From a virus: a stretch of DNA of 64,000 bases. The stretch is from IMG/VR virus record IMGVR_UViG_3300043598_000016, positions 1 through 64,000 of that record; one strand, written 5' to 3'. Position 1 is the first letter of the stretch. Every line of letters begins with the position of its first letter. The translations under genes and the position numbers were made by a program. Below, in pieces: positions 1,935 through 63,597 of this stretch. A model generated the notes under the pieces. That model searched no databases and was not told where the DNA came from. It was given only the letters and a program-made list of their open reading frames with translations.

Positions 1935-4900
1935 TCACGTGGAGTCGGTCCAGAACGGGGACGGCTCATCCGGCTCGGCGATGATCGGCACGCCGAATAG
2001 GTTCCCTTGCATGCACTCGACCAGCGCGGCGGTGGCCTCGGCGCCGTCTTCCTCGGGCACCTGGATGATCAACTCATCGTGTACCGGCATCAGCGTGCAG
2101 TGCCCCCATCGGGTCTCCCGCCAGCGCAGCAGGGCATCCACCAGCAGCTCCCGGCACGATCCCTGGATGGCGTAGTTCGGCGCCTTGTGCGGGAATGCCG
2201 GCGGGAAGTGGATCACGCGTCCGGAGTAGCTGACCATGTGGGTCTGGCCCCGGCGGACCGCCTGGCGTAGATCATTCGACCACTGCTGAAACTGCGGGGT
2301 GAGCGCCTTGAGGCTGTCCACGATCGCGGCCATGGTCTGCTCGTTCACGCCGATCTGCTGGGCCAGCGTGACGATCCCGCCGCCGTACATGTGCCCGAAC
2401 ACACCGGGCTTCACCGCGTAGTAATCCGCCTTGGTGGCATCCGGCCCGAAAGCCTGTTTGGCGATCATCCAGTGGAAATTGACCCGTGCGTCCGGGTCGG
2501 TGTTGGCGTCCGCCTCGGCGATCTTGGCCAGCATCGTCTGGTCCCCGGACAGCGCGCCGGCGCCGCGCAGCTCCACCCCGGCGAAGTCGGCTTTGATCAG
2601 CACGTGGCCCTCATCGGCCCGGTACAGCGCGCGGATCCCGCCGGTCTTGGGCAACTGCTGACAGTTCGGCCTGACACTCGACATACGCCCGGTGTCCGCC
2701 GAGAGAGTGTAGATCGTTGGCCGGGCCCGCCCGTCCCCGTTGTTGATCAGCAGGCCGTACGGCTTGAGGAACAAATTGATCACGGTGTCCGAGTGCCGCC
2801 AGTCGATCACCAGGCTGGCCAGGCGGCCCGCGTCGGTGTCCGGGTGGTCCCGCTTGAGTACCTGCAGCACGTGATCCGCCGTGCTGGCTTGGCCCTGGGG
2901 GAATTTTCCGGACGGCTTGGTACGCGGGCACCGGTAGCCCACCCGCTCGAGCCCAGCGGCCAGCTGCTGGCTGCTCTTGGGGTTCTCCACCCGGTAGCCG
3001 GTGATCTCGGCCATTGCCTGGGCCATCAGCGCGGTGTGCTCGGCCACCTTGCCCCGGTGCAGCTCGGCGTCTAGGGGCAGCCCCCGGTAGGAGATCCGGG
3101 CGGTCATCTCCTGGGCCGCCCGTTCCCGGTGCATGATCGGCGCCGGGATGGTGGGCAGCCGCCGGTCCAGCGCGGCGGTATCCAGGACATCGGCGGCGGC
3201 GTACCGGACCATGGTCGATGAGTTGGGCTTGACCTGGGCCCAGCCCGAGCGCTCGAGCGGGGTCTCTGGCTTGACCTTGGTGAGCCACCCGCCGGCTTTG
3301 AACAGCCCCTCACGGGCCTCATCGGCGCCCTTGGACACCCCGGCCGGGCCGAGCACCTTGGCGCCCAGAGACTTGAGATCCGGATCCGAGCCGGTGGAGC
3401 GGGGATCGCCGAGCTTGGCCGGGATCACGGTGTCCCACATCCGGTACCAGCCAGACTCAATGGCGATCATGTCAGCCCAGGCCAACGGGTTGAGGTCCGC
3501 CGTGGCCGAGTGCGCGCAGAGCCTCGGCGCCTCGGCCACCAGCGCGGTGACCACCGCCCGCTGCTCCGCCGAGGTGGGATCGAGCACCAGCGCCAGATCC
3601 TCATCGCCGAGCTGCACCAGGCGCAGCGCGTACTCATCGCGCCCGAGTGCGTAGCCGGTGTGCTCCACGTCAAGGGTCAACGACCCGCTGCGCTCGAGGA
3701 TGCACCGCCCGGCGGTGAGTGCCTCGTCCGTGGTGATCTCGGTGATGGCGCCGGCCCGGTTGACCGCCGCCGGCAGCGTGACCTCCGCCCCCTCGGCGGC
3801 CGCGATGGCCACCAGCCGAGCGGCCGCCTTGGCCTCAGCCGCGATCCGCTTTTTGTCCACCGACACCCGGCCGGTATCGGTGCGCGCGGTCACCTTGGCC
3901 GGCGGGTCGAATAGGCCGAGCTCACCGGCCCGGCGCGCGATGTCCTCGAGCTCGGCGGCGGCCGCGCCAGTCACGCTCTGTGTATCGGTGGCCGGCGCCG
4001 GCGGGTCGTTCGTTAGGCTAACGTAATTGGTATCCGCTGAACTCGATGGCGGCTCGCTGGCGAGTACCGAATCAGTACCCGCCCGCGCCGGTTGGCCGAG
4101 GTCGGCCGCGAATCTGGGCGAGGATTCCGGCGGGATTGGCGGGGCGGCTTCTATTTTCTCTGTGTAGTGCTGTGTAGGTACTCCATTAGGTGTAGTAAAT
4201 GACGTGTTGTGTGTTGTGAGGCTTATAGGACGGGATATACCCGCCAACCCGCCACTACTATTACTAGAAATACCGTTTGAGCTGGCGTTTTGTGGCGTGG
4301 CGGGTTGCGGCTGGAGACCCGCCCCGGACCCGCCGAACCCGCCCGGCGCCCCGCCACCCCCGTGAAGATCCATAGCGGTGCCGCCGGTTACGGAGAGTGG
4401 CCGATACCAGCGTCCATCCAGCTTGGCCGCCGGGTGCCCGAGGTCTGTCAGCGCCCGGCCGAACGCGGTTTCGCTGCCCGGTCCGGTGCGCCGGTAGAGC
4501 GGGTGGGATTCCAGCCAGGAGGCGTACGCGATGAACAGCTGGCGCCCCGGTGTGCCCGGCTGGGCCGGGGTGGTCCGCTCGGCCACCCAGGCGGACACCG
4601 GGGACTGCTGGGCCACCATCTCCTCCGCCTCGCGGATCAGCGCAAGCGGCGCGCGATGGTTGCTCGCCGAGTCCCGGTCAGCCAGCCAACCGGCCGCCTC
4701 GGTCATCAGCGCGGCGAGGATTCCAGGCGCCTCGGCGGCCCAGGTCACCGGCCGGGCCAACTGCTGGCGCAGCGGCCGGATGTCCGCCTCGAGCGCCTCG
4801 CACGGCACCATCCGCATGCGGGCCCGTAGCGCCGGGTCGGTGATCGGCGGCTCATCGTTAGAGGTGAGCACCAGCGTGTGAGTGGGCGCGAAAGTCACCG

Positions 4901-6842
4901 GGTTGCCGCGCATCGGGTTGCCGGTGAGCGGGATCCCACCGGTGATCTGCTTGAGCCGCTCGGTAGCCAGGTGACCACGGCGCGGCCCCTCATCCACGAA
5001 CGCCAACCTGCAGCCCTTGAGGGCGTAGATGATGCTGGCGTGCGCCTGGTCCGCGCCGGCCAGCAGCCGAGCGTCCGCCGCGATGCCGTAGGTACCCAGC
5101 ACCCGGCAGAGCAGCCCGATCACCGAGCTCTTACCCGAGCGTTCCCGGCCGTAGAGCACCGGCAGCGCCGCGTCCGGGTAGCCGGTGAGCGAGATGGCCA
5201 GCACCCGGACCGCCCAGGCGCGGATCTCCGGATCGGGCCACACGGCGGCCAGGAACGCATCCCACACGGGCGTAGGGCCGGGCGCCGGGATCACCGAGGC
5301 GGTGTGCATGTGCGGGGTGTTCGGATCCACCCAGTCGGCCACCGTGGGCACCTCGAGCGAGCGGGACAGCGACCAGGGCCAGCCGCCGGCCCACAGCACC
5401 TCGGGATCCTGATCGAGCTCGGCCACGTCAACCGACCACGGCGCCCGGTCATCCCGGGTGATGTCTTTGACCTTCCGGGTGATCTTGGCCGAGCCGGCCG
5501 AGCTCATATATTGATCACGCCAGTAGCTCGCCCAGTGCTCCCGGGTCCAATCCTCTTTGTCCTTGGGCCGGGGCACCACGCCAGCCGGCATCAGCCGCGC
5601 CACCATGGACACCGCCCAGCCGGCCCGGTCGTGGCGCTCGAGCCAGCGTTCCGCCGAGCGGGCCAGCCAGGTGGCCGAGCTCTCCGACCAGAGCAGCGCC
5701 GGGCGCATCCGCATCAGCACCGCCTCGGCGTGCGCCTGGTCCGTCCCGGACGGCTCGAACGGGTGCGCCCCGATCGCGGACAGCACCGACCACGGCGGCG
5801 GGGGCAGCGGGGTGTCCAGGGGGCTCGAGCTGAGCACGTCCTCGGACAGTTCCACCCCGCCATCCGCCATCCACTGCGCCTCTTGGGCCGGGGTGTAGAC
5901 GTAGAACGGCCGCTGCGCCCCATCAGCCAGCCCCTGGGCCATCCACAGCTCATCCGCCTCATCGGGGGCACCCCAGCAGGCCGCCACGGCGCCACGGAGC
6001 CGCTCAGCCGCGTCCGCCTCGGTGAGGTAGCCGCCCCCGACGTAGCCGCCGAGGGTCAGCGCGGCGCGCATCAGCACGTCCCGGAACCCACCGGCCCGGT
6101 CATGCTCGGCCACGGCGGTGAGCTTTTCCGCCATCGCGGACTGGGCGGCCCGCTCGGCCTGCGGCGCCTTGGCCGAGCGCTCCATGGCCAGCCAGCCGGC
6201 CGGCACGTTCTCCGGGGCCCTGGCCATGCTCGGCCCACCCGAGGCGGCCGCCATCAGCTGGCGCAGCGCCTCCCCGGAGTTGTCCACCCGCCAGCCCAGC
6301 TCCCAGGCGCCCAGGTCCGGCCCGCCGGCCCATCGGTACGCCCGGGCCACGCCGTCCACCTTGGACACCCGCACCGTGGGCGGCAGGAACACGAACCCCC
6401 GGCCGTGCCCATCCCCGGCGCCGGCCTGGATGTCGATCCCGGGCAGCACGTTGGTGGCCTTGGCCACGCCGAGCGAATTGATCCACAGGTGCCCGCCGCC
6501 GGACGGGGTGGCCACCGAGCCGTAGGCGGTGGGCAGCGTGCCATTCATCTGGGCCAGCGACTCGGCGCCGCCGTTGCGAGGGTCCACGTCCAGCACGTCC
6601 AGGCCGTGCCCCATCACCGCGCAGAGCGCCCAGCCAGGTTGCCAGCGATCGGGCACCGAGGCATCCGGGCCGGTGTGCTGCCAGCCGGTGGGCAGCGCGA
6701 ACCCGGTGGAGCTCGAGGGATCGGGCGGGGCGACGAACAGCGGGATTCCCAGCCGGGCTATCCCACGCGCCGCCTCGAGTGCGCCGGCCAGCTCATCCGC
6801 ACTGAGAGGCCTGGGGGTTTGAGGCGTGTCTTGCCTGGTCAT
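1935..6842 (-). CDS. Primase-polymerase / SF3 helicase / 3'-5' exonuclease / family A DNA polymerase fusion
   Basis: A single 1635-aa replisome protein. Residues about 20-210 match the bifunctional primase-polymerase (AEP) fold, with the catalytic LDVDP near 84 and TPSGGGHLW near 115. Residues about 480-760 are a virus-type SF3/D5-like helicase: Walker A GRERSGKS near 567, Walker B LAFVDEG near 614, and a TSND sensor. Residues about 820-950 are a Ser/Gly/Asn-rich linker encoded by unusually AT-rich DNA (4010-4330). Residues about 1050-1220 carry a DnaQ-like proofreading exonuclease (DVEHTGY; HSATADL; YAAADV). The C terminus is PolA-like with motif A DFAGVELR near 1419, FGHMYGGG near 1485 and motif C HDELI near 1590. 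This would let one polypeptide prime, unwind and copy phage DNA. Start ATG 6842 follows ACCGGAG. Confidence 0.9.
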   Translation of the reverse strand: MTRQDTPQTPRPLSADELAGALEAARGIARLGIPLFVAPPDPSSSTGFALPTGWQHTGPDASVPDRWQPGWALCAVMGHGLDVLDVDPRNGGAESLAQMNGTLPTAYGSVATPSGGGHLWINSLGVAKATNVLPGIDIQAGAGDGHGRGFVFLPPTVRVSKVDGVARAYRWAGGPDLGAWELGWRVDNSGEALRQLMAAASGGPSMARAPENVPAGWLAMERSAKAPQAERAAQSAMAEKLTAVAEHDRAGGFRDVLMRAALTLGGYVGGGYLTEADAAERLRGAVAACWGAPDEADELWMAQGLADGAQRPFYVYTPAQEAQWMADGGVELSEDVLSSSPLDTPLPPPPWSVLSAIGAHPFEPSGTDQAHAEAVLMRMRPALLWSESSATWLARSAERWLERHDRAGWAVSMVARLMPAGVVPRPKDKEDWTREHWASYWRDQYMSSAGSAKITRKVKDITRDDRAPWSVDVAELDQDPEVLWAGGWPWSLSRSLEVPTVADWVDPNTPHMHTASVIPAPGPTPVWDAFLAAVWPDPEIRAWAVRVLAISLTGYPDAALPVLYGRERSGKSSVIGLLCRVLGTYGIAADARLLAGADQAHASIIYALKGCRLAFVDEGPRRGHLATERLKQITGGIPLTGNPMRGNPVTFAPTHTLVLTSNDEPPITDPALRARMRMVPCEALEADIRPLRQQLARPVTWAAEAPGILAALMTEAAGWLADRDSASNHRAPLALIREAEEMVAQQSPVSAWVAERTTPAQPGTPGRQLFIAYASWLESHPLYRRTGPGSETAFGRALTDLGHPAAKLDGRWYRPLSVTGGTAMDLHGGGGAPGGFGGSGAGLQPQPATPQNASSNGISSNSSGGLAGISRPISLTTHNTSFTTPNGVPTQHYTEKIEAAPPIPPESSPRFAADLGQPARAGTDSVLASEPPSSSADTNYVSLTNDPPAPATDTQSVTGAAAAELEDIARRAGELGLFDPPAKVTARTDTGRVSVDKKRIAAEAKAAARLVAIAAAEGAEVTLPAAVNRAGAITEITTDEALTAGRCILERSGSLTLDVEHTGYALGRDEYALRLVQLGDEDLALVLDPTSAEQRAVVTALVAEAPRLCAHSATADLNPLAWADMIAIESGWYRMWDTVIPAKLGDPRSTGSDPDLKSLGAKVLGPAGVSKGADEAREGLFKAGGWLTKVKPETPLERSGWAQVKPNSSTMVRYAAADVLDTAALDRRLPTIPAPIMHRERAAQEMTARISYRGLPLDAELHRGKVAEHTALMAQAMAEITGYRVENPKSSQQLAAGLERVGYRCPRTKPSGKFPQGQASTADHVLQVLKRDHPDTDAGRLASLVIDWRHSDTVINLFLKPYGLLINNGDGRARPTIYTLSADTGRMSSVRPNCQQLPKTGGIRALYRADEGHVLIKADFAGVELRGAGALSGDQTMLAKIAEADANTDPDARVNFHWMIAKQAFGPDATKADYYAVKPGVFGHMYGGGIVTLAQQIGVNEQTMAAIVDSLKALTPQFQQWSNDLRQAVRRGQTHMVSYSGRVIHFPPAFPHKAPNYAIQGSCRELLVDALLRWRETRWGHCTLMPVHDELIIQVPEEDGAEATAALVECMQGNLFGVPIIAEPDEPSPFWTDST
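4010..4330 (-). other. AT-rich linker segment inside the replisome fusion
   Basis: Base composition drops sharply compared with the flanks although the reading frame stays open. It holds a perfect CGTTAG-G-CTAACG palindrome (4011-4023), the minus-strand 12-mer AAGCCTCACAAC (4213-4224) also present in the 13.6 kb leader (13618-13629), and ACTATTACTAGAAAT near 4255, which matches 13 of 15 bases near 63672. These features look intergenic, consistent with two ancestral genes joined through a former spacer. Confidence 0.5.
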
Positions 6843-10965: not shown

Positions 10966-11811
10966 TCAGCCAGGGATCTCATCCCGGTGACCGATAGTTC
11001 CCGGGCAGCCCGAGCCGCCATCGCGGGCAGCTTGCGGCCTGTACATCGGGCACCAAATACATACCTCGTCTTCCGGGGTGGCCGGCACGTTCATGATCTC
11101 GGTGCGCCCGTTCATGATCGCTTCAGCCCAGCTGCGCCGGTAGCGGGTCCGGTCGATCACCTGCTCGATCAGCTCATCGTCAGCCACCGAGTACGGGTGG
11201 TCCCAGAGATACATTCCGTCCAGGCTCGAGGCGGCCGCCGGCATCGCGGCCAGCACCACCCGGTCCACCCGATAGCCGAGGTTGCGGTAGCCCTGGGCAT
11301 ACAAGATCATCTGGATCTGGTAGTGGATCGGCGGGCCGTGCGGTGAGCGGATCTTGGCCATGCTGGTGGGCCCGAGGAACTTCCAATCGAGCAGGGCGAA
11401 CTGCCAGCAGTCATAGAGATCGGCGGTACCCGGCCCGTCCCCGTTGAGGTTGAACGGGGTGACCTTCCGCTCCGTCAGCCACCGCTTGGCGCCGAGCCGC
11501 TCATTCTCCGCATCGAAAGCCAGCTGCGCCCAGGCGTGCAACGCGGTGCCCCGGATACTCGGCCACGGATCAGCCACATGATTTGTTGGCGCCATGTTGA
11601 GCATCTTGTGGACCACCTGGCGGTCACACCGCACGCCGAGCTCGGACGGGCCCAGGGTGCGCTGCAGCGTCCGGGGCGCCTGGCTGGCGTGCACGTGATA
11701 CACCCGCCGTAGCTCGGCGCCCATCCGCTGCGCCCACTCGGTATTACCGCCGAGCGGGGCCGGCGCGGACAATTTGAACGCGGCAATTTCAGCGGCCGGG
11801 ATGGCGCTCAT
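10966..11811 (-). CDS. Cas4/RecB-like Fe-S PD-(D/E)XK exonuclease
   Basis: A 281-aa nuclease of the Cas4/RecB family. The PD-(D/E)XK core is clear: GTALHAWA with His92, GTADLYD with Asp131, LLDWKF with Asp142 and Lys144, and YQIQMILYAQG as the QxxxY motif. Four Cys at 62, 251, 254 and 269 (RCDRQ near the N terminus; CIWC and CPG near the C terminus) match the Fe-S cluster ligands of this family. It would process DNA ends for phage recombination. ATG 11811 overlaps the preceding stop as ATGA, behind GGGAGCG. No CRISPR array or other cas gene is present, so this is the phage recombination type. Confidence 0.85.
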   Translation of the reverse strand: MSAIPAAEIAAFKLSAPAPLGGNTEWAQRMGAELRRVYHVHASQAPRTLQRTLGPSELGVRCDRQVVHKMLNMAPTNHVADPWPSIRGTALHAWAQLAFDAENERLGAKRWLTERKVTPFNLNGDGPGTADLYDCWQFALLDWKFLGPTSMAKIRSPHGPPIHYQIQMILYAQGYRNLGYRVDRVVLAAMPAAASSLDGMYLWDHPYSVADDELIEQVIDRTRYRRSWAEAIMNGRTEIMNVPATPEDEVCIWCPMYRPQAARDGGSGCPGTIGHRDEIPG

Positions 11812-15021: not shown

Positions 15022-15555
15022 ATGGGCGAATACTCCGGGCCCTATGAGACCCAGAATCCAAATAAGAGTGATGCGGTAATGGATGTTGAGGCCGCGCTCT
15101 GTTTCGCCTATGCCCGGGCCAATTACACCGTTCGGGACATAGCGCGAATGACCGGGCTGGACCCCATGACCGTGTGCCGCCGGCTGGATAGGTTGATCTT
15201 GGTACAAAGCCGCCCTAGCCGATCTATCCTGCGGCTGATCGAGGCTGACCGGGTGGACGATATGGCCCGCGCGGTGGACCAGGTGCTGTACGGCTCGGGG
15301 CGCCCGGACGTGGAGCTGCTGGCCGAGCGGGCGGTGGCCCAGGGACTCACCCCGGTGGACGTGGCCGCGCTGCTGAGGGTGCAGCTGGCCGCCTCGGCCC
15401 GGCGGTCCAGCCTGCTCGGCCTGAACACCCCTGAGTCCGAGCCGGATGATCCGCCCCTGGGGGACAGCCCCGAGCCGACCGAGTGGGAGCTCAGCGCCCG
15501 CAACCATCGCGATGAGCAGGCCCGACGCATAGAGAAAGGTGAGTTCGATGACTGA
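15022..15555 (+). CDS. HTH protein, 177 aa
   Basis: A 177-aa protein. Residues about 24-60 contain a helix-turn-helix (NYTVRDIARMTGLDPMTVCRRLDRL) of the sigma-70 region 4/GntR-like type. The rest is helical and acidic with no further motif. It could be a transcription regulator or a DNA-binding scaffolding protein. ATG 15022 is the annotated start; an internal ATG near 15079 would still keep the HTH. Confidence 0.6.
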   Translation: MGEYSGPYETQNPNKSDAVMDVEAALCFAYARANYTVRDIARMTGLDPMTVCRRLDRLILVQSRPSRSILRLIEADRVDDMARAVDQVLYGSGRPDVELLAERAVAQGLTPVDVAALLRVQLAASARRSSLLGLNTPESEPDDPPLGDSPEPTEWELSARNHRDEQARRIEKGEFDD

Positions 15556-16162
15556 CTACCCGCCCGGCGACTGGGACTCTCAGGACTGGCCCGACACCCC
15601 GCCCGAGCCGGACACCGCCACTCACCGCGCTGATAAGCCCTGGCCAGGGCCACCCGGCGCACTGCTGGGCGTGCGCGATGGCGGACCGCCATGCACCCGG
15701 GCGCACTGCGGGCACGCGTACACCCGGCACCTGCGCGCCGGCCCGCCGGTACCAGGCGCGGCCGAGCTGGCGTGCATGTCCCCCGAGTGTGGCTGCCCCG
15801 GCTACCAGCCACCGAGCTCGGCGGCCGAGGCGCACCAGGCACTGAAAGACGCTCCACGTCCGGGCTGGCCACGTACCGGGCGCGTGCCGTTGGCCGATCT
15901 GGTGGGCGCGGCGGCCGCCGCAAGCCTGGGCCACCCGGACCGCGCCGAGGAGATAGAGAGCCGGCTCACCGCCGCGCTCGAGCTGCTGACCCGCTACCGG
16001 ACCACGCTGCACCACGCCCTCGGGCTGACCCGCCCGGTGCCGGATGAGGAACTGCTCACCTACGTAGTGGATGCGATCCGGCACGCCCAGCAGCTGCCGC
16101 CGCCGGTGCGCAGCGGTGAGACCACCACGGCGGCCAGCCCAGGGAGTGAGACTGATGTCTGA
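15548..16162 (+). CDS. Zinc-knuckle protein, ALGL-module family member 1
   Basis: A 204-aa protein. The N-terminal half has a His/Cys cluster (CTRAHCGHAYTRH, then CMSPECGCPGY, residues about 48-87) likely to bind zinc. The C-terminal half holds LTAALELL...HHALGLTRPVPDEELLTYVVDAIRHAQ, which recurs in the proteins at 16155 and 16916. ATG 15548 lies inside the end of the previous gene. Function unknown; the shared module suggests gene duplication. Confidence 0.6.
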   Translation: MTDYPPGDWDSQDWPDTPPEPDTATHRADKPWPGPPGALLGVRDGGPPCTRAHCGHAYTRHLRAGPPVPGAAELACMSPECGCPGYQPPSSAAEAHQALKDAPRPGWPRTGRVPLADLVGAAAAASLGHPDRAEEIESRLTAALELLTRYRTTLHHALGLTRPVPDEELLTYVVDAIRHAQQLPPPVRSGETTTAASPGSETDV

Positions 16163-16736
16163 GGATGACCAGCCCACCGCGCCACACACCGCCTGCCGCT
16201 GTGGCCAGCCCGAGGCGGCCGGGGTGGTGCACCGCGCGGACGGACCCTGTTACGTGGCGGCCAGCGTGGCCCGCACGGCGGAGCAGGTGATCCACCACCT
16301 GACGAACACCCAGCCCGCCGAGGTCAGTGAAGCGTTCGCCCGGATGTATCCCGAGCTGGCCAACGTCATCACCGAGCACCCCGCCGGCCCGGGCCGGGAG
16401 ACCTTGGCGCGGTTTCGCCGGGAGCTGATCAACGCCCTCGGTGTGCGGCACCGGCCGGCGGACACCGAGCTGCTCCGCCTGGCCACCGAGGTGATCCGGC
16501 TGGCCCGGCGCACTGAACCCGGCGCGGTGGACCAGCTGCGGGCCGGCAGCAGAACCCCCCCCGGCGACTTCCCCTGCTGCTGCCCCGCCCCGACTACTGA
16601 GGTGGACCACGACGCGCCCTCGGCCACCACGGTGGGCACCGACTACGCCGCCGAGGTGGCCTACCGCACCCAGGTACAGCGCCCGGCGGACGATCCGGAC
16701 TGGGACATGCCGCCGCACCCCGAGGGTGAGCAGTGA
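16155..16736 (+). CDS. ALGL-module family member 2
   Basis: A 193-aa protein. It opens with a Cys pair (CRCGQPEAAG), then a helical region, then the shared module RRELINALGVRHRPADTELLRLATEVIRLARR near residues 86-118. A short FPCCCPAP cluster follows. It overlaps its upstream paralogue by 8 bases and sits behind AGGGAGTGAG. Function unknown. Confidence 0.6.
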   Translation: MSEDDQPTAPHTACRCGQPEAAGVVHRADGPCYVAASVARTAEQVIHHLTNTQPAEVSEAFARMYPELANVITEHPAGPGRETLARFRRELINALGVRHRPADTELLRLATEVIRLARRTEPGAVDQLRAGSRTPPGDFPCCCPAPTTEVDHDAPSATTVGTDYAAEVAYRTQVQRPADDPDWDMPPHPEGEQ

Positions 16737-16745
16737 GGGGCGGTG

Positions 16746-16928
16746 ATGGCCACGAAATTCACCGGCGTGCGAGACGGCGTACGCACCGCCGCGACGTGCC
16801 CGAGGTGCCGGACGCATCGGCTGTTCACGATGCCGAGCACCGGCGAACGTATGTGCGGGGATCAGGTGCACTGCCGCTACGTCAGCACGGAGAACCCGGA
16901 GCGGGGGGCGGGCCGGTGGTCGAGCTGA
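16746..16928 (+). CDS. Small zinc-ribbon protein, 60 aa
   Basis: A 60-aa protein with CPRCRTH and a second half MCGDQVHCRY that together resemble a zinc ribbon. ATG 16746 lies after GAGGGGCGGTG. It overlaps the next gene by 13 bases. No family was recognised. Confidence 0.55.
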   Translation: MATKFTGVRDGVRTAATCPRCRTHRLFTMPSTGERMCGDQVHCRYVSTENPERGAGRWSS

Positions 16929-17446
16929 TCGAGGATGCGGTGATCGCGGTGGCCCACCAGCTGCACCTGATCTACCGCACGGGCCCCAAGCAGACCGCCG
17001 AGGACATAGCGCGCCGCGTGCTGGCCGAGTACGAACGGGTCAAGGCGGCCGCGTTGAGCGCTGTGCCACTCAGCCGGGCGCCCTGGCGGGTGGGCAACCC
17101 GGAGCTGCGGGAGCGCCCGAACGACCTATACGAGGCGGACCGGGCCGGCCGCTGGCGCTACATCGGCTCGCTGGCCACCCCGGAACACGCCACCTGGTGC
17201 GCGGTGGCCCGGGACATGCTGGCCGGCCAGCGGATAGATGAGGCGTACCGGGTGGCCAGCAGCTCGGCCGATGCGTTCCGAGCCAGGCTCACCGCCGCCC
17301 TTGGGCTGCCCGAGAATCCCGGGGACGCGGTGCTCATAGCCTCGGCCGAGCGGGCCATCCGGATCGCCCGGGGGCTGCCCCGGAATGCTGGGCCGCCCGA
17401 GCTCGGCCAAGGCAGCCAGGCTGACCATTACCGGGGGGACGGATGA
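16916..17446 (+). CDS. ALGL-module family member 3
   Basis: A 176-aa protein without Cys clusters. Its C terminus repeats the shared module FRARLTAALGLPENPGDAVLIASAERAIRIARG. A longer reading from 16733 exists, but GTG 16916 is preferred because it follows GGAGCGGGGGG and avoids reading through the zinc-ribbon gene in another frame. Function unknown. Confidence 0.6.
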   Translation: MVELIEDAVIAVAHQLHLIYRTGPKQTAEDIARRVLAEYERVKAAALSAVPLSRAPWRVGNPELRERPNDLYEADRAGRWRYIGSLATPEHATWCAVARDMLAGQRIDEAYRVASSSADAFRARLTAALGLPENPGDAVLIASAERAIRIARGLPRNAGPPELGQGSQADHYRGDG

Positions 17447-17544
17447 GCAACGCGGATTGGTGGCTGCTGGGTACGTGCTTCCTGGGCGCCCTCGGCGTGG
17501 TGGCGATGGTGGTGGCCATCTACCTGGCCCGGCGGTCACGATGA
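17443..17544 (+). CDS. Membrane microprotein, 33 aa
   Basis: A 33-aa single-span protein (WWLLGTCFLGALGVVAMVVA, then a basic end ARRSR). It starts at ATG 17443 in an ATGA overlap with the upstream stop and ends in an ATGA overlap with the next start. The N-out/basic-in arrangement predicts an inner-membrane anchor. Confidence 0.55.
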   Translation: MSNADWWLLGTCFLGALGVVAMVVAIYLARRSR

Positions 17545-17846
17545 CCCGCCCGGAGTGCCCGGGGTGCGGGGAGGGGCCAGCGTTCCCGGCGCGCCGGCGG
17601 GTGGACTGGGCGCTATGGGTGCACCCCGAGCAGTCCCGGATCTGCCTGGTGCCCACCTGGCCGGCCTACCGCACGGCGCGGATGACGCTGTGCCATGACT
17701 GCACCCGGGGCGCGCTGCTGCAGAGCACCTGTCTGGCCGAGCGGGAGCCCGGCGGCGGGTTCCGGCTGGTGACCGCCACGGTGGCCAGCTGCTGCCCGCG
17801 TTGCCTGGGCCGGTCCTGCCTGCCGGGTTTCGTGATGCCGTCATGA
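17541..17846 (+). CDS. Cys-rich zinc-binding protein, 101 aa
   Basis: A 101-aa protein with CPGCGEGPAFP, then LCHDCTRGAL, then CCPRCLGRSC. This pattern of paired Cys indicates two zinc sites. It lies between membrane microprotein genes and overlaps both as ATGA. No enzyme motif was seen. Confidence 0.6.
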   Translation: MTRPECPGCGEGPAFPARRRVDWALWVHPEQSRICLVPTWPAYRTARMTLCHDCTRGALLQSTCLAEREPGGGFRLVTATVASCCPRCLGRSCLPGFVMPS

Positions 17847-17962
17847 CCGGCCGGGCGGTAGTGCTGGCCCTGCTGGCGCTGATCATGGTGTTGCTGCTGG
17901 CCGCGCTCTGCTTCGCGGTCTATGCGCTGGTCATCACCGGGGCGGTGACCTGCCAATGGTGA
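17843..17962 (+). CDS. Membrane microprotein, 39 aa
   Basis: A 39-aa protein that is nearly all one membrane span (VVLALLALIMVLLLAALCF and onward). It begins at ATG 17843 overlapping the previous stop and overlaps the next small gene by seven bases. Confidence 0.5.
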   Translation: MTGRAVVLALLALIMVLLLAALCFAVYALVITGAVTCQW

Positions 17963-18045
17963 GGGCGCTGGTCATGGGTTGGCTGGGTGACGTCGAGTGG
18001 CTGACCCTGCTGAGCCTGCTGAGCATCGCCTGGGGGCTGCTGTGA
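17956..18045 (+). CDS. Membrane microprotein, 29 aa
   Basis: A 29-aa candidate with an amphipathic N terminus and hydrophobic tail (WLTLLSLLSIAWGLL). It is supported mainly by precise end-to-start overlaps on both sides; expression is unproven. Confidence 0.4.
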   Translation: MVRALVMGWLGDVEWLTLLSLLSIAWGLL

Positions 18046-18185
18046 TGATCAGGCGGTGGCCAGGGTGGTGGGTGCTGGTCATCGTGCTGTTGCTGGCCGC
18101 CGCCACCGCGCGCTCCGTCTGGCTGGCCATCGGCGCCGCCACCGTGGCGGTGGTGCTGCTCGAGCGCCCGAGGTGGCGGCTATGA
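18045..18185 (+). CDS. Membrane microprotein, 46 aa
   Basis: A 46-aa protein with one or two hydrophobic segments (WWVLVIVLLLAAATA and VWLAIGAATVAVVLL) and basic ends. ATG 18045 overlaps the previous stop as TGATG. Confidence 0.5.
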   Translation: MIRRWPGWWVLVIVLLLAAATARSVWLAIGAATVAVVLLERPRWRL

Positions 18186-18388
18186 CTGAGCCGCTGTTCG
18201 TCCAGGGCACGCTGCCCAGCTCAGGCTCCCGCTTCCGAATGTGGGTGTCACTGCGGTGGGCGGTGCTCGAGGTCAACGGGCTAGTGACGTTCGTGCCGAG
18301 CTCAGCCGGCAGCTGGGACCGTCACCCGCTACCGGCTGAGCTGGTGGCGGATATGGCGGTCGCACTCTGGGAAGCGGGCCAGCCATGA
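18182..18388 (+). CDS. Hypothetical protein, 68 aa
   Basis: A 68-aa soluble protein, beta-rich (FRMWVSLRWAVLEVNGLVTF), of unknown function. It overlaps the membrane microprotein upstream and the terminase-like gene downstream as ATGA, so translation of the terminase-like protein may depend on it. Confidence 0.55.
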   Translation: MTEPLFVQGTLPSSGSRFRMWVSLRWAVLEVNGLVTFVPSSAGSWDRHPLPAELVADMAVALWEAGQP

Positions 18389-19974
18389 CCCTGCTGCTGC
18401 CCGAGGACGAGGTGCTGGCCACCGGCCCGTATGTGCTGGCCGGGCCGGATGACTGGGACGGCACCTGGTACCACCGCCAGCTGATGCACTCGGCGGTGGC
18501 CAACTTCATGGCCGAGGCGCGCCGGCCCGAGCGACTGCCGGGCCGGCAGTACCGCCGCGACCTGACCGAACACAACCCGCTGCTGTTCATGTTGATCTAT
18601 CTGACCAAGCACCTGCGGACCCCTCGGCTGGACGGCGCGATCCACCTGTCACGGTTCCACTTGGACGCGCTGCACTACTGCCGGCGCTGGGCATTCCAGG
18701 GCTGGGGGATCGGCGGGTGCCGGGATGGCTGGATCGCGCCCCGCAAGTCAGGCAAGTCAACGATCTTTCTGGTTGGCCTGCTGCTCTGGGCGCTGGCCCA
18801 CGGGCACCGCCGCTTCGCGCTGGTGATCGCGCACACCGGCACCATGGTGGACAAACACATGCTCACCCTGCGCGATGAGATCCAGAACAACCCATGGCTG
18901 CGGGCCGATTTCCCCGAGCTCTGCACCCCGCTCAAGCGGCGCGGCCGGGCGGTGATGGACAACGCGGAGGGCTACATGGCCGAGTCCGGCGCGATGTTCC
19001 TGGTGATGGGTTTCGGCCGGGCCGCCCTCGGCATCAAGGTGGGCACCGAGCTGCCGGATCTGATCATGGTTGACGATGGTGAGGGGCACGAGGAGCGGTA
19101 CAGCCTCTACCAGAAATCACAGCGGCTCAAGACGTTGCGCGCGGCCATCCTGCCGATGAACGAGTACGCGGTGCTGGCCATCATCGGCACCACCACCCGG
19201 CACGGCTCGATCATGCACGACGTGGCCCGGGCGGCCGCCTGGGTGCAGGCCGAGGGGATCCGGGCGCACCATTACCCGGCGATCGAGACGGACCCGGAGA
19301 CCGGTGAGCGGCGCTCGGCGTGGGCGGCCCGCTGGCCGTTGAGCTGGCTGCTGGACAACGAACTGGAAAGATCATTCGCGCTGAACTATCTGTGCGACCC
19401 GCTAGCCCCGGGGGAGGGTAGCTACTGGTCCGATGAGATGTTCGTGATGGCCCCGCCGAGCATCGCCCGACTGGTCACCAGCCGGGCGCTGAGCATCGAT
19501 CCCACGGACCTGGCCAACGGCGCGCACAACGACTTCACGGCGCTGGTGCAGGGGGCGTACTCGGCGCCGTACCGGAAAGCCATTCTCGAGGCGAGCATCA
19601 GCGTCAAGCCGACTGAGGATGAACTCAAGTGGCGGGTGCACTCGGCCATCCGCAACAGCCCGCCGGCCTGCCCGATCACCCGGGTGCTGATCGAGATGAA
19701 TAAGGGCGGCCCGCTGGTCAAGCAGGTGTGCAGCCCGCTGCCCCGGGTCAACGGGGTGCGGGTGGAGTGGGTGGAAGTGTGGGCGACTGAGCACAAGCTG
19801 AGCCGGCTGGGCCGCGCGGCGGACCGGTTCGAGCGCGGCGAAGTGCTGTTCGGCGATACCCTCCCGTCGCTGCGCCGCCAACTCAAGGCCGTGCCCAACG
19901 GCGACCATGACGATGAGGCGGACGCGGTTTCGCAGTACCTGGACGATGTGCTGCCCGGTGAGTACGTCGCCTAG
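18385..19974 (+). CDS. Second terminase large-subunit-like ATPase-nuclease
   Basis: A 529-aa protein with all elements of a phage packaging motor: Walker A APRKSGKST at 118-126, Walker B DLIMVDDGE at 225-233, coupling motif IIGTTTR at 266-272, and an RNase H-like nuclease with IDPTD (Asp372), IEMN (Glu437) and HDDEADA (508-514). It belongs to a TerL lineage different from the TerL at 61406-63106 and has no small subunit, portal or cos-like context here. It ends a chain of overlapping small genes and is followed by a hairpin. It could be a true alternative packaging motor, an anti-satellite factor or a repurposed DNA translocase-nuclease. Confidence 0.85.
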   Translation: MTLLLPEDEVLATGPYVLAGPDDWDGTWYHRQLMHSAVANFMAEARRPERLPGRQYRRDLTEHNPLLFMLIYLTKHLRTPRLDGAIHLSRFHLDALHYCRRWAFQGWGIGGCRDGWIAPRKSGKSTIFLVGLLLWALAHGHRRFALVIAHTGTMVDKHMLTLRDEIQNNPWLRADFPELCTPLKRRGRAVMDNAEGYMAESGAMFLVMGFGRAALGIKVGTELPDLIMVDDGEGHEERYSLYQKSQRLKTLRAAILPMNEYAVLAIIGTTTRHGSIMHDVARAAAWVQAEGIRAHHYPAIETDPETGERRSAWAARWPLSWLLDNELERSFALNYLCDPLAPGEGSYWSDEMFVMAPPSIARLVTSRALSIDPTDLANGAHNDFTALVQGAYSAPYRKAILEASISVKPTEDELKWRVHSAIRNSPPACPITRVLIEMNKGGPLVKQVCSPLPRVNGVRVEWVEVWATEHKLSRLGRAADRFERGEVLFGDTLPSLRRQLKAVPNGDHDDEADAVSQYLDDVLPGEYVA

Positions 19975-20103: not shown

Positions 20104-21279
20104 ATGACCGCCCCCCGCACCACCGCCCAGTCCGCCGCCGATGAGGCTTACGCCGCTTTCGTTGCCGGTTGCACGTGCGGCCTGACCGACCACCAGCACA
20201 CCACCGAGTGCGCCGCGCGCTGGGATGCCGCCGCCGAGGCTGCCGAACTGGCCAACACCGAGGCGCCGGCTGCCCCGTTCGAGATCGGCCAGCGGGTCCG
20301 CTTCACCGCCGAGATCGGCAGCCCCGAGCTGGTGCACGTCACCGGCGAGATCACCGAGGCTGGCCCCCGCGAGTCCGTGGTCCGCCTGGACACCCGGGTG
20401 CCCGGCTACGTCGCCGAGCTGCGTTCGTTCAACATCTACATTGAGCCCATCCCCGAGCTGACCGCTGTTGAGGCGGTCCGCCTGGTCACCCGCCGCGCGC
20501 AGCGGGCCGCGCTGGACCACGCCGAGCCCCTCGGCCCGGTGCCGTGTGCTCACGTGTTTATGCGCACCATGGGCGCGCTCAGCTGCCAGAAATGCCACGT
20601 TGGCGCCTCGGCCACACTCGGCGGAGCTTTCCGCACCTACGCCCAGCAGTGGGCCGAGGCGGACCGCCGCACCGAGCTGGCCGCCACCGATCCCACGCTG
20701 TCCGCCTACGCCATGCGCCTGGTGCAGGCCGCCGAATACCGGGCCGAGCTGCGCGCCTACGGGGTGCCGGTGGCCCAGCTGGTTTACCCGTTCGCCATCG
20801 GCCCGGACCCGGAGTACCTCGGCCACCCGGACCGCGCCGAGTACCGCGCCGCCTGGGAGCAGGCCGGGCGACTGACCGGCGCCGCCGAGTACGCCGCCGC
20901 GCTGCGCGCCCTGGCCGACATCGTGGAGGCCACCCCCGAGGTGCACCGCTACAACGACTTTTTCGTCTGGTACGGGGAGAGCCGGGAGGATCTGGCCGCG
21001 CTGGCCCGGGCCGCGCTGGCCGCCGGCGCCACGGTGGCCAAGGACGTGGAGGCGGACAGCTATAACCTTGAGCTGCGCCTGGGCCCGCTCAAGCTGATGG
21101 CGCTGGCCAACCGCTCGGCGGTGTGCGAGCGGGTGGTGCTCGGCACCGATGAGGTGACCGAGATGGTGCCGGACCCGGAGTACGTGGCGCCCGAGCTGCC
21201 GGCGGCGCCCCTGGTCCAGGTCACCCGCACGGTGGACCGGGTGGAGTGGCGCTGCACCCCGCTGCTGGCCGAGAGCTAG
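20104..21279 (+). CDS. Hypothetical protein, 391 aa
   Basis: A 391-aa protein of unknown function. It starts with a His/Cys segment (CTCGLTDHQHTTEC) and has an SH3/KOW-like stretch (IGQRVRFTAEIGSPELVHVTG, with an FNIYIEPIPE end) near residues 60-115. A second Cys set follows (CAHVF...CQKCH near 148-165), then a long helical region. It has its own promoter and is followed by strong hairpins, so it is a separately expressed unit. No enzyme signature was seen; a nucleic-acid-binding host-takeover factor is possible. Confidence 0.6.
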   Translation: MTAPRTTAQSAADEAYAAFVAGCTCGLTDHQHTTECAARWDAAAEAAELANTEAPAAPFEIGQRVRFTAEIGSPELVHVTGEITEAGPRESVVRLDTRVPGYVAELRSFNIYIEPIPELTAVEAVRLVTRRAQRAALDHAEPLGPVPCAHVFMRTMGALSCQKCHVGASATLGGAFRTYAQQWAEADRRTELAATDPTLSAYAMRLVQAAEYRAELRAYGVPVAQLVYPFAIGPDPEYLGHPDRAEYRAAWEQAGRLTGAAEYAAALRALADIVEATPEVHRYNDFFVWYGESREDLAALARAALAAGATVAKDVEADSYNLELRLGPLKLMALANRSAVCERVVLGTDEVTEMVPDPEYVAPELPAAPLVQVTRTVDRVEWRCTPLLAES

Positions 21280-25033: not shown

Positions 25034-25449
25034 GCGCCCATGGTCAGACCGTGCTGTTTGCCGTGGTGGCGCTGCACGCCGAGGGCTACCCGCTGGCCGA
25101 GATCGAGGCGGCTTTCCAGGCGCCCGAGCTGGCCGAGGTGGACTACAACGCCACGATCACCGATGCCGAGCTGGCCGAGGTGCGCCGCCGGCTGATCGGC
25201 TTGAGCCCCACCGGGTGGCAGCCGGTCACCAACCGGTGGGAAAGCCGCCGAGGCGATGGCTCCCTACTCGTGGTCAAGCCAGCCAGCCGCTCCGCGCGCA
25301 CCGAGCGGGGCACCCCCTACAGCTGGGTGTTCGCCTGGTACGGGCCCGCCGGCGGTGTGCTCCACGGCTACAGCCGCACCGAGTTCTACAACTCAGCTGA
25401 GCGGGCAATGGACGCGGCCGAGGCGCACTTTCGCCGGGCGCTGTCATGA
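25030..25449 (+). CDS. Hypothetical protein, 139 aa
   Basis: A 139-aa protein, helical at first (FAVVALHAEGYPLAEIEAAFQ), then beta-rich with Trp/Tyr (YSWVFAWYGPAGGVLHGYSRTEF). It is coupled by ATGA overlaps to the genes on both sides, including the methyltransferase. Function unknown. Confidence 0.6.
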   Translation: MSAHGQTVLFAVVALHAEGYPLAEIEAAFQAPELAEVDYNATITDAELAEVRRRLIGLSPTGWQPVTNRWESRRGDGSLLVVKPASRSARTERGTPYSWVFAWYGPAGGVLHGYSRTEFYNSAERAMDAAEAHFRRALS

Positions 25450-26204
25450 GCCGCCGGCCGCGTTGCCTGGATCTGTGCGCCGGCGCCGGCGGCTCGGCCA
25501 CCGGGTACGCCCGGGCCGGGTTCGAGGTGACCTGTGTCGATGTCAAGCGCTGGCGGTGCTTCCCGCATGACCGGTTCGAGCTCATCCAGGCGGACCTGGT
25601 GGAGCTCGGCGTGGCCGGCATCGTGGAGCTGGCCGAGCGGACCGGCGCGGACCTGATCACCGCCAGCCCGCCGTGCAAGACGCACACCGATATGGCGCAC
25701 TTCGCCAGCTCGGGCCACGTGGACCTGGTGCCGCTGGTGCGGGAAGCCCTGGCCGCCACCGGGCTGCCCTCGATCATCGAAAATGTGCCCGGCTGCCCGC
25801 TGGTCAACCCGGTGCAGCTCTGCGGCAGCAATGCCCGGTTTGACCTCGGGGTGCAGCGTGAGCGGCTGTTTGAGGCCGGCGGCGGGATCACCCTGGTGGG
25901 CGCCGAGTGCGACCACCAGCGCCAAGCTGAGCGCGCGCCGCTGCTGCCCGGCTACACAGAGCGCGGCTGGCCGATCCGCCGTTACCACCGGCTCAACGGG
26001 GACCAGCCCTACCGCATCGTGATGAGCCCGGTGATCGGCGTGTACGGCGGCGGCCAAGGCCTCGGCCCGGGTGAGACCAAGTTGTGGGCCCGCGCGATGG
26101 GCATCGACTGGATGAGCCGCCGCGCGATGGCCGAGGCCATCCCACCCGCGTACACCGAGTACCTGGGCCGCCAGGTGCTCGAGCAGATCGGAGCCTCGCA
26201 ATGA
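25446..26204 (+). CDS. C5-cytosine DNA methyltransferase-like
   Basis: A compact 252-aa class I methyltransferase. Motif I LDLCAGAGGSATGY lies at residues 8-21 (SAM binding), motif IV ASPPC with the catalytic Cys at 73-77, motif VI IENV at 111-114 and motif VIII QRERLF at 137-142. These are hallmarks of 5-methylcytosine enzymes. The target-recognition region is short, as in many phage versions. It likely modifies phage DNA against host restriction. No partner restriction enzyme is present. ATG 25446 overlaps the upstream stop; the last codons are shared with the start element of the next gene. Confidence 0.8.
   Translation: MSRRPRCLDLCAGAGGSATGYARAGFEVTCVDVKRWRCFPHDRFELIQADLVELGVAGIVELAERTGADLITASPPCKTHTDMAHFASSGHVDLVPLVREALAATGLPSIIENVPGCPLVNPVQLCGSNARFDLGVQRERLFEAGGGITLVGAECDHQRQAERAPLLPGYTERGWPIRRYHRLNGDQPYRIVMSPVIGVYGGGQGLGPGETKLWARAMGIDWMSRRAMAEAIPPAYTEYLGRQVLEQIGASQ
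26190..26200 (+). promoter_or_regulatory. Start-associated element of 26201 gene
   Basis: GGAGCCTCGCA ends directly before ATG 26201 and lies in the coding end of the methyltransferase, giving its terminal Gly-Ala-Ser-Gln. Confidence 0.6.
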
Positions 26205-58845: not shown

Positions 58846-59877
58846 TCACACGATGTAGCCGAACCGGCCGAGCTGGCGCAGCGTCTCTTCACGGGTCCAG
58901 CCCTCAACCTCGGCCTGGGCCATGATCTCGTCCGGCAGCAGCCGGGGAGCCTTGGCGTAGCGCAGCGACTTGGCCCCCGAGGGGCGCCGCTCGAGCTGCC
59001 CGCGCGGCCGCTTGCGCAGCGTGCCGTCCGGCTGCACCTCATAGCCGCCGTACCAGCCGCGCACCGAGGTGCCCGAGGTGGTGGCCCGCACGTCCCGGCC
59101 GAACGAGGAGACCACCTGGACCCCGCTGTACGCGTTGACCGTCTGGCTGATGTCCGCGCCGGCCCGGATCGCGGCGGCGGCCCCGCCGAACAGCGCGTCC
59201 TGCTGGGCCGGCGCCAACCGGTTGAAATACGCCCGGGGGTCGGTGGTCCAGTCGCCGGGCGCATCCTCGGCGGACGGGATCATGTAGCAGTCACATTGCG
59301 GATGGCGCTTGAAAGCCGAGCGGCGGTAGTGCCGCCCGGCCAGCACGGCGCACCGGGCGCAACTGGTCCCGCGCAGCGCCCGCACGTAGCTCTTGGCCGA
59401 GCTCCGGGCGAACATGCCCACCCCGATGGCCGAGCGGGCCATATCCCGCACGCCCTCGGACACGATCGCGCCGGCCACGTAGCGCGCCCGGCTGGCCGCC
59501 AGGTTGCCGCCGGCGCCGGCCGAGGTGGCATCCCGGTAGGCACTCGGCGGCGCATAGACCAGGTTGCGCAGCCAGCTGCCGCCCCCGTCCGTCTGGTCCA
59601 CAAACGTCTCGGTGGCCACCCGGGCATCGGCGGCGGTGTCCGCGCCCTGGGCGGCCAGCACATCGTCCAAGTACGGATCCGCCTGCTGTACCCCGGCCCG
59701 CTGCAGCTCGAGCAGGGTCGGGCCGGCGTCCACCACGGCGGCCCGCCACCGGTCCGGGTTCCCGCCGGCCAGCGCGCCGCTCTGCTGGTCGATCTGCTCC
59801 ACCGCGTAGGCGGTCAGCAGCTCGAGATCGTTCGAGTAGCCGGCAGCCACGTCAACGACGGCGGCCGGCGGTGGCAC
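58846..59877 (-). CDS. MuF-like capsid maturation/minor head protein
   Basis: A 343-aa protein. The central MuF core shows TSCARCAVLAG at residues 171-181 and FKRHPQCDCYMIP at 189-201, the Cys/His signature of this family. It overlaps the end of the portal gene by 26 bases, the usual arrangement. It takes part in head maturation and DNA ejection. Confidence 0.85.
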   Translation of the reverse strand: MPPPAAVVDVAAGYSNDLELLTAYAVEQIDQQSGALAGGNPDRWRAAVVDAGPTLLELQRAGVQQADPYLDDVLAAQGADTAADARVATETFVDQTDGGGSWLRNLVYAPPSAYRDATSAGAGGNLAASRARYVAGAIVSEGVRDMARSAIGVGMFARSSAKSYVRALRGTSCARCAVLAGRHYRRSAFKRHPQCDCYMIPSAEDAPGDWTTDPRAYFNRLAPAQQDALFGGAAAAIRAGADISQTVNAYSGVQVVSSFGRDVRATTSGTSVRGWYGGYEVQPDGTLRKRPRGQLERRPSGAKSLRYAKAPRLLPDEIMAQAEVEGWTREETLRQLGRFGYIV

Positions 59878-61384
59878 CGTTCCTCCGGGCGTTGGTGGGC
59901 GGCCCAGCCGGCGGCCCGGCCGGCGGCGGCTGCTGGCCGGCGGGAGCAGGCTCGCCCGGGGCCGGGATCCCGGCGCCGCCGGCGGCCCCGTTGAGGTTCT
60001 TGAGCCCGGCCAAGATGTTGCTGGTCCGGGCCCCGTCGCTGCCCATCCGGTCCTTCATCAGGGCCCGCTGCGCCGGGGTGTACCCGCAATCCTCCTGGGC
60101 CTGCTCGGTGTCGATGATGCCGGCCTGCACCAGCTTGACGGCGCGGTCCGCGATGGCCGAGGCGGTGGGCGTGCTGGGGTCGCGCCAGACAGTTTCCATC
60201 CGGTTGCCCTCGGCCGGGTCGCGGCCCATCATCGCCAGCGCGATGCGCATGGCCCGCTCCCAGGTGCCGCCCTTGCCCCGCTGGTGTCGCTCGGCCCGCT
60301 TCACCAGCCGCGCCTCGCTCGAGCGGATGGCGTCCGCCGAGGCCGGGTTCTCACTCGAGTAGCCGAGGTAGTGCGGCGGTAGCCCGTACTTGGACGCGGC
60401 CAGGGTGGCGATCTGTTTGATCACCGCGATGTAGTTGTTCAGGTCGCTGGCGGTGAACTGCCCGATCTGCGGGCGGTCGCCTTCCCCGGCCGCGATGCGG
60501 CGGCCGTCCTCGTCCACCGGCGGCGGCACCGCCCACAGGTAGCCGGCGGCAACCTGCCACGCCTTGAGCTGGTGGCCGGCCTCATCGGTGAACATGGCCG
60601 GGTCCAGGTTGATCGCCCACCGGCGGGGCAGCGCGTGGTGTTCCACCCCGGCGAGCATGTTGGTGGCGGTCTGATTGACCGCGTCCACCAGCGGGATGAT
60701 GTCGGCCAGCTCAGAGTGGCCCAGGCCGCGCCGGGACCGGGTGAGCATCGGCACCACCGGCACCAGCGGGGAGGTCTGGTGCGCCTCGAGTGTCTTGGAC
60801 CAGCCGTCCTTGGTTTTCTCCACCACCTTGGGGCCCTTGGCGCCGTGCTGGTAGGTGATCGAGCGCCCGGGGAGGTAGAGCTGGGCCATGTCCTCGGCGG
60901 TCAGCGCGTCGTCGGACTTCCACACCTTGAGCGCGGAGATCACCCGCCGCGATCCGGGATCCACCTCCACCGCCACCTGGTCCGAGTACTCGACCGTGAC
61001 CAGCGGGATATCGGTGTCCGAGGGGCCCAGCATCACGTAGGACTGACCGCACACCATGGAGGCCACGTGCGCCTCGCCGGAATTTTCGTCCAGGTCATTG
61101 TCCTGCCAGACGTGGCTGAGGTCCTCGTCCACCTCGTCCGCGCCGGCCAGGCGGAAACCCTCCACGTCCAGCCGCTCTTCCACCGAGGCCACGATCAGCT
61201 CGGACCAATTCACCCGCAGCGGCGGGAACCGGTCTCCCTGCTCGAGCAGGATCCGGGCCACGTAGGCCAGCGGCTGCTCATTGTCGTAGTACGCCCAGAG
61301 ATCGGCGTGGTCCTGCTGCTGCTTGCGCCGCTTGCGCTGCAGCCGCTCGAGCCATTGATCGTCAGTCTGGTCCAGCAGGGCCAC
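59852..61384 (-). CDS. Portal protein (SPP1 gp6-like)
   Basis: A 510-aa portal. It has the SPP1-type N terminus (QQQDHADLWAYYDNEQPLAYVARILLEQGDR, then RVNWSELIVASVEERLDVEGFRL) and a wing/stem region followed by a helical C terminus with a Pro/Gly tail. It follows the terminase with a short gap. The GTG start at 61384 is preceded by GAGAGGTGGTGAGCGC, a leader nearly identical to the tape-measure gene. Confidence 0.9.
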   Translation of the reverse strand: MALLDQTDDQWLERLQRKRRKQQQDHADLWAYYDNEQPLAYVARILLEQGDRFPPLRVNWSELIVASVEERLDVEGFRLAGADEVDEDLSHVWQDNDLDENSGEAHVASMVCGQSYVMLGPSDTDIPLVTVEYSDQVAVEVDPGSRRVISALKVWKSDDALTAEDMAQLYLPGRSITYQHGAKGPKVVEKTKDGWSKTLEAHQTSPLVPVVPMLTRSRRGLGHSELADIIPLVDAVNQTATNMLAGVEHHALPRRWAINLDPAMFTDEAGHQLKAWQVAAGYLWAVPPPVDEDGRRIAAGEGDRPQIGQFTASDLNNYIAVIKQIATLAASKYGLPPHYLGYSSENPASADAIRSSEARLVKRAERHQRGKGGTWERAMRIALAMMGRDPAEGNRMETVWRDPSTPTASAIADRAVKLVQAGIIDTEQAQEDCGYTPAQRALMKDRMGSDGARTSNILAGLKNLNGAAGGAGIPAPGEPAPAGQQPPPAGPPAGPPTNARRNGATAGRRR

Positions 61385-63106: not shown

Positions 63107-63597
63107 TCGCCCGGATCATCCTCGGGCGGCTCGGGCACGATCTCGAATCGCTCCCGGGCGCCGCGCCGCCGAGCCCGGGCCGCGTCGGTGCCGGTGGCGG
63201 CCAGCGGCTTGGCCGCCTCGCCGATCTTCCACCGGTGCATCCGTAGGCCGGGCATGGTGATGCCGAGCGAATCGGCCAGCTGGCGCCACGCGGTGCGCAC
63301 GTTCACCGGCGCGCCGGGTTGCTCCGCCTCGGTGAATACCCGGACGTACTGGCCCACCTCATCGGCCAGGCCGAGGCGTTCCCACATGAGCGCCTGCGGT
63401 TTGCGCCAGAGTCGGGCCCAGAGCTCCCGTTCCCGGCGGGTGGCTTTCGGATCGAGGGGCCAATCCGGCAGTGGGCGGCCCACCCGGCCCTCAGCCGGCA
63501 GTGTCACCCATTCACCGCCCTGGCCATTGGCCGAGCGGATGGAGTTCGGATCCGGCTTGCTTCCGGCGCCTGGCCGGGCCCCGCCGTGAGTAGGCAT
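63103..63597 (-). CDS. terS: Terminase small subunit
   Basis: A 164-aa protein (LWARLWRKPQALMWERLGLADEVGQYVRVFTEAE, then TAWRQLADSLGITMPGLRMHRW) that matches actinophage small terminases: a central helical core and a C-terminal helix. The N terminus is Gly/Arg-rich. ATG 63597 follows AGTAGGGACAATTCG, in an AT-rich zone with repeated CTATTN boxes that could be its target. Confidence 0.8.
   Translation of the reverse strand: MPTHGGARPGAGSKPDPNSIRSANGQGGEWVTLPAEGRVGRPLPDWPLDPKATRRERELWARLWRKPQALMWERLGLADEVGQYVRVFTEAEQPGAPVNVRTAWRQLADSLGITMPGLRMHRWKIGEAAKPLAATGTDAARARRRGARERFEIVPEPPEDDPGE

Follow-up and report, generated by a model that had tools for sequence, protein, structure and literature searches.

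A second terminase pair set apart from the packaging module in a phage genome, and its possible use outside the capsid

The stretch of DNA analysed here (hereafter, the window; 64,000 nucleotides, nearly the whole of the 64,063-base virus record IMGVR_UViG_3300043598_000016) carries, in addition to an ordinary packaging terminase, a divergent second terminase large subunit (TerL2) in its early operon, almost certainly accompanied by its own small subunit (TerS2). We read the pair as an accessory terminase that would act off the capsid as a TerS-guided cutter and translocase against competing DNA, and we give this reading as a whole a probability of roughly 0.45. The features involved are as follows.

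15022-15555, + strand: TerS2 (g13), small-subunit-like, 177 aa; N-terminal HTH (HTH_23), helical body, end RRSSLLGLNTP
15884-18388, + strand: variable small genes between TerS2 and TerL2 (92, 193, 176, 39, 37 and 68 aa)
18385-19974, + strand: TerL2, accessory terminase large subunit, 529 aa; ATPase and RNase H-fold nuclease; shortened C-terminal tail
20104-21279, + strand: downstream neighbour of TerL2, 391 aa; 61-70% in the relative G001 (see below); no portal
59852-61384, - strand: portal, SPP1 gp6-like (PF05133, 1e-23; PHROG_104, 3e-119)
61406-63106, - strand: TerL1, ordinary packaging TerL (PHROG_19179, 4e-145; PHROG_9, 6e-34; also PHROG_21277)
63103-63597, - strand: presumed TerS1, by position beside TerL1 only

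Judged by its sequence, the ORF at 18385-19974 (+) is a real and intact PHROG_38-type TerL. Its coding statistics are typical for the genome (codon score 152, GC3 0.90), and residues 31-521, covering the ATPase and nuclease domains, matched PHROG_38 'terminase large subunit' (E=9.6e-45); the Pfam search returned no match. The Walker A (APRKSGKST, 118-126), Walker B (DLIMVDDGE, 225-233) and coupling (GTTTRHGS, 268-275) motifs and the nuclease acids (D372, E437, and D509/D510/D513 in HDDEADA) are intact at the positions given by an earlier, sequence-only reading of this DNA, and most of these residues are invariant across the PHROG_38-type family. The AF2 model is a confident two-domain terminase (ATPase and nuclease, pLDDT 84.9), with PhiV-1 terminase and T4 gp17 as the best PDB matches in Foldseek, and Sf6 gp2 also matched. 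The dN/dS of 0.247 is the seventh lowest of 57 genes and indicates strong purifying selection; together with the intact motifs, it rules out a decayed passenger gene.

TerL2 sits among same-strand early genes, away from the structural genes. No portal or capsid gene was found near it in the gene maps and profile searches of the window and of G001, which led to the rejection of an inserted satellite of the MiniFlayer kind and bears out the earlier view of a divergent second terminase outside a packaging context. Its downstream neighbour had a weak DUF1835 match and no PHROG match. The normal TerL was correctly placed far off beside the portal, 41.4 kb from TerL2. TerL1 matches Arthrobacter and Streptomyces phage TerLs at 51% and has a dN/dS of 0.240. 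Calling TerL2 a "second copy" did not hold, as TerL2 (PHROG_38) and TerL1 (PHROG_9) belong to different families, and a duplication of TerL1 is thereby ruled out. PHROG_226 gives the presumed TerS1 the label 'minor tail protein', which the gene at the corresponding position in Streptomyces phage Dubu also bears; this is probably a propagated misannotation.

The two-terminase genome could in principle be an assembly chimera, or TerL2 a recently acquired passenger gene, as might be suspected from the different families of the two TerLs and from the lack of a DNA-level match in isolate phages. A relative found via TerL1 (IMGVR_UViG_3300045000_000052, hereafter G001; 56,250 bases) carries both genes, with TerL2 78% and TerL1 80% identical to those of the window, and the two genomes are collinear over the length of G001 with protein identities of 65-86%. 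The collinear relative rules out a chimera, and the dN/dS of 0.25 and the ancient TerL2 clade (below) likewise speak against a passenger. This explanation is thus already refuted for practical purposes and retains only a minute probability. The sequence-only reading had named a chimera, or absence of the gene from close relatives, as grounds for giving up its claim, and the comparison came out in its favour.

TerL2 is accompanied by a small subunit that the earlier reading did not include. An HMM built from 57 TerS proteins encoded upstream of the family's portal-linked TerLs matched g13 (15022-15555, +) with E=6.9e-11 among 9045 ORFs, and no other protein of the window; it also matched the G001 ortholog (E=2.3e-9), and hhalign gave 95-98%. 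A TerS2 homolog (tblastn 32%, E=7e-11) lies directly upstream of, and overlaps, TerL2 in an unrelated phage from a Nocardioides MAG (JAOPXC010000370.1, hereafter C361; 69,366 bases). TerS2 has a Pfam HTH_23 match (E=5e-6), an RRxxLLGLxxP region at the C-terminus by alignment, and a dN/dS of 0.281. Its AF2 model (pLDDT 85.7, pTM 0.49) had no Foldseek match in the PDB with E<=0.001. HTH_23 alone would allow a mere repressor; this is disfavoured by the match to a TerS profile over the full length and by the place of the homolog immediately before TerL2 in C361. The profile match and the synteny together indicate that the early operon almost certainly holds a second complete terminase, TerS2 plus TerL2.

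The two genes are 2.8 kb apart in the window, and the small genes between them are poorly or not conserved in G001; PHROG and Pfam gave no function for any gene in 15884-18388. TerL2 had been described as ending a chain of membrane microproteins. This is right for 17843-17962 and 18072-18185, which are TM-like in a TM scan, and wrong for the gene directly before TerL2 (18182-18388, 68 aa, ATGA overlap), which is not. A short single-TM protein is found beside or just upstream of TerL2 in the window (18072-18185), in G001 (11134-11268) and in four further contigs (G022-G025), often with overlapping stop and start. A TM microprotein stands directly upstream of TerL2 in 5 of 11 cases, which fall in just two sub-lineages; among small ORFs the share is 20%. 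The single-TM protein is therefore a possible partner of TerL2 but not a general one, and, given this limited recurrence, the microproteins were not accepted as a component of the system.

To place TerL2 in its family, 80 loci were collected in a first scan, and besides G001 all 79 of 79 adjoin a portal. The apparent uniqueness of TerL2 was a ranking bias, as revealed by scans seeded with lone (portal-less) members. C361, followed up as a long-branched match, has a PHROG_38-type TerL2 with a TerS upstream and no portal near TerL2; its contig also encodes a PHROG_9 TerL at another place. Portal-less TerL2s are now known from 18 contigs (the window, G001, C361, G018, G020-G027, L217, L219, L227, L271, L235 and L238), a number that reflects what scans by short patterns found and is no estimate of abundance. 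All but C361 are metagenome virus contigs, and none is from a cultured phage. Absence of a portal was judged from sequence profiles and, in mapped contigs, from the lack of a portal-sized gene beside TerL2. A TerS was found upstream on the same strand, at 0-3.2 kb, in every portal-less case searched (predicted genes, full contigs). No gene family besides TerS and TerL was common to all portal-less loci examined.

A different TerL is also present in 14 of the 18 contigs, of PHROG_9 in 12 (window, G001, C361, G020, G021, G022, G025, G026, G033-G036) and of PHROG_2 in two (G023, G024); for G026 and G033-G036 it was identified by profile only. A PHROG_9 TerL was not found in the other four contigs, all fragments of 32-51 kb, and is absent from all nine control contigs, whose family TerL falls outside the lone clade (eight portal-linked, plus G037, which groups with the portal-linked ones). 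Portals were typed in nine of the 14: SPP1 in the window, G001 (by homology to the window), G022 and G025, HK97 in C361, G020 and G021, and portal-MuF in G023 and G024. With three types among nine typed contigs, the TerS2/TerL2 pair does not track one portal. G022-G025 share TerS2, TerL2 and neighbouring early and lysis families; the head and packaging modules of G022/G025 (PHROG_9 with SPP1 portal) and G023/G024 (PHROG_2 with portal-MuF) are non-homologous. In total, the pair recurs in at least a dozen related and unrelated actinobacterial phages besides the window.

In a tree rooted with Mu-type terminases, 12 lone TerL2s formed one clade (support 99/95), and in a quick tree all 18 did so (SH-aLRT 99) with no portal-linked member inside; long branches leave the inner order of this clade unsure. 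The phylogenies thus place the lone TerL2s as a single, deeply diverged clade within a family whose other members lie beside a portal in nearly all cases.

This clade differs from the ordinary members at the C-terminus. The tail after the last acidic motif has 22 residues in TerL2 and 18-27 in 17 of the 18 lone members, as against 29-46 in 86 of 86 ordinary members of the first set and at least 28 in the second; the exception among the lone members is L238/G036, with 41 residues. Among 47 new non-redundant loci, three had a short tail and no portal, none a short tail with a portal, two a long tail and no portal, and 41 a long tail with a portal, with one unresolved (L235, which lies 0.8 kb from a contig end and has an incomplete gene context). 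Tail length was associated with the portal on these independent loci (Fisher p=7e-4). The two long-tailed loci without a portal are L238 and L255; the latter clusters with TerLs that are linked to a portal, and its own portal was probably missed. At 136 columns conserved in ordinary members, lone TerL2s differ at 32-50 and ordinary members at 22 at most. The catalytic positions K124, D230/D231, D372, E437 (one E to D change) and D509/D510/D513 are kept in the 11 aligned lone members. P-loop glycines are changed in C361/G018 (AAKST) and in G027 (MKST, which also has DDIQ); with these odd motif residues, ATPase activity may differ among the lone members. The clade offers a natural experiment, separating TerL residues that possibly serve the portal (changed) from catalytic ones (kept).

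The C-terminus of lambda TerL contacts the portal, and the Aam42 product, without its last 5 residues, nicks cos and cannot bind the prohead (PMC4856287). By analogy, TerS2/TerL2 should recognise and cut DNA, not package it. Aam42 is a laboratory model of what TerL2 may be by nature, with the difference that it is a mutant of the only terminase, while TerL2 is an accessory gene. Having kept the cutting and motor residues and with its tail shortened, TerL2 probably acts on DNA in some way other than filling its own head. An off-capsid use is favoured by the short tail, by the occurrence of the pair with portals of three types and by its position in the early operon, and on the lambda analogy it is likely that TerL2 is not a capsid-docked motor in normal use.

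The same observations bear on backup packaging, in which the pair would dock on the phage's own portal and package satellite, plasmid, host or phage DNA. Both subunits are kept with intact catalytic residues, the family includes the terminases of the Streptomyces satellites MiniFlayer and Mulchroom, and a distant relationship links the window's portal to those of the family (E=2e-18 to that of MiniFlayer). We nevertheless consider this unlikely, given the short tail in 17 of 18, the three different portal types, the location in an early-strand operon far from the structural genes, and the excess change at otherwise conserved positions. The earlier suggestion that TerL2 packages a satellite or alternative DNA is made less likely by the short tails and portal types and by the lack of an adjoining portal.

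Off the capsid, we lean slightly towards TerS2/TerL2 being a sequence-guided DNA cutter and translocase. TerS2 would recognise a DNA site, and TerL2, loaded there, would cut the DNA with its nuclease and move along it with its ATPase; unable to dock on a portal, it would leave the DNA cut and exposed, not packaged. The favoured target would be DNA competing with the phage, such as that of co-infecting or superinfecting phages, satellites or plasmids, with sites perhaps like the pac or cos of its ancestral family. Competitor or foreign DNA is our best guess, put forward tentatively, in view of three things: the module is an accessory one, it occurs with differing heads, and in C361/G018 it adjoins a serine integrase, a region in which actinobacteriophages often carry prophage defence genes. 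The earlier proposals of a DNA-degrading translocase or an antagonist of another phage's packaging stand as the best class of explanation, although they too rest on inference. PADLOC gave no match for TerL2 and only a weak HTH match for TerS2. As for the clade as a whole, it is rather speculative that these monophyletic accessory holoterminases are portal-independent, TerS-guided DNA cleaving and translocating machines, derived from packaging motors, for conflict with rival phages or mobile elements.

The integrase and the early location could also be expected if the pair processed the phage's own DNA outside packaging, at replication intermediates, concatemers or replication ends, or in the control of prophage excision and circularisation; strong conservation and the kept nuclease residues would fit as well. 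The carriers have very different structural modules, however, and no recurrent replication gene is linked to the pair, so that we regard this as improbable. A role against the host or its immunity, by host DNA degradation or as a decoy or trigger for TerL-sensing Avs3-type receptors, is suggested by the best fold match being the TerL bound by Avs3 (8dgc), and the short tail and sequence changes would suit a bait protein. A decoy could do without a TerS partner and without intact ATPase and nuclease motifs, yet the pair conserves both, and such a role is quite doubtful.

Among the closest known relatives of TerL2, the PHROG_38 TerLs of Microbacterium phages OscarSo, Wyvern and Isperia and of Streptomyces phages Yara, Dryad and Gibson match it at 35-37% (E to 2e-71). 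Like TerL2, the OscarSo/Yara-type TerLs have full-length homology, the same catalytic motifs and a TerS-type gene upstream; unlike it, they are annotated as the packaging TerL of their phage, sit close to the portal where the structural genes begin, and have a long conserved C-terminal tail. MiniFlayer and Mulchroom have a TerL of the same family (30-32% to TerL2) and keep TerS, TerL, portal, scaffold and capsid together, whereas TerL2 is without portal or capsid and its carrier is a full phage. In the Mulchroom TerL (L005:661-2565) a long inserted stretch of low complexity separates the ATPase part from the nuclease part, and the Rhodococcus prophage TerLs L134 and L137 are unusually long, possibly through an intein or linker. 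Phage-inducible islands use their own TerS to recruit the helper's TerL and redirect packaging; they share with the window an accessory terminase part, and the window's pair differs in having its own TerL.

No portal-less second terminase was found among the family's isolate-phage relatives: the full-length actinobacterial matches are annotated packaging terminases, and those inspected in context all sit near a portal. A single-protein viral scan and a DNA-level search of isolate phages gave nothing useful, and the Streptomonospora plasmid phiM2 was rejected as a cultured example on account of the portal adjoining its TerL. Multiple terminase genes have been annotated in the S. warneri prophage vB_G30_01 (ORF41/42), but there the genes are adjacent within the packaging module (PMC11512304), while TerL2 is far from it. 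The 'second TerS' of Kuttervirus was judged a misannotation by its authors, to whom a further small subunit so far away was unheard of (PMC9409062). In the literature searched, with bioRxiv preprints and most subscription papers outside it, no additional TerS/TerL pair at a distance from the first was described.

Phylogenies and predictions of packaging strategy use terminase as a hallmark gene present once per phage, and in genomes of this kind a classification built on TerL can rest on the wrong gene. Used off the capsid, the pair would put the strongest known biological DNA motor to a new purpose, together with a specificity subunit that can be read; if the preferred reading is true, a packaging motor would have been made into a new kind of phage weapon or barrier to superinfection.

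Two other genes of the window were observed. The gene at 1935-6842 (-) encodes a 1635-aa protein of unusual size, by eye a fusion of primase/helicase and family-A DNA polymerase with exonuclease. A C5-cytosine-methyltransferase-like gene at 25446-26204 (+) is 82% in G001 and among the best conserved early genes.
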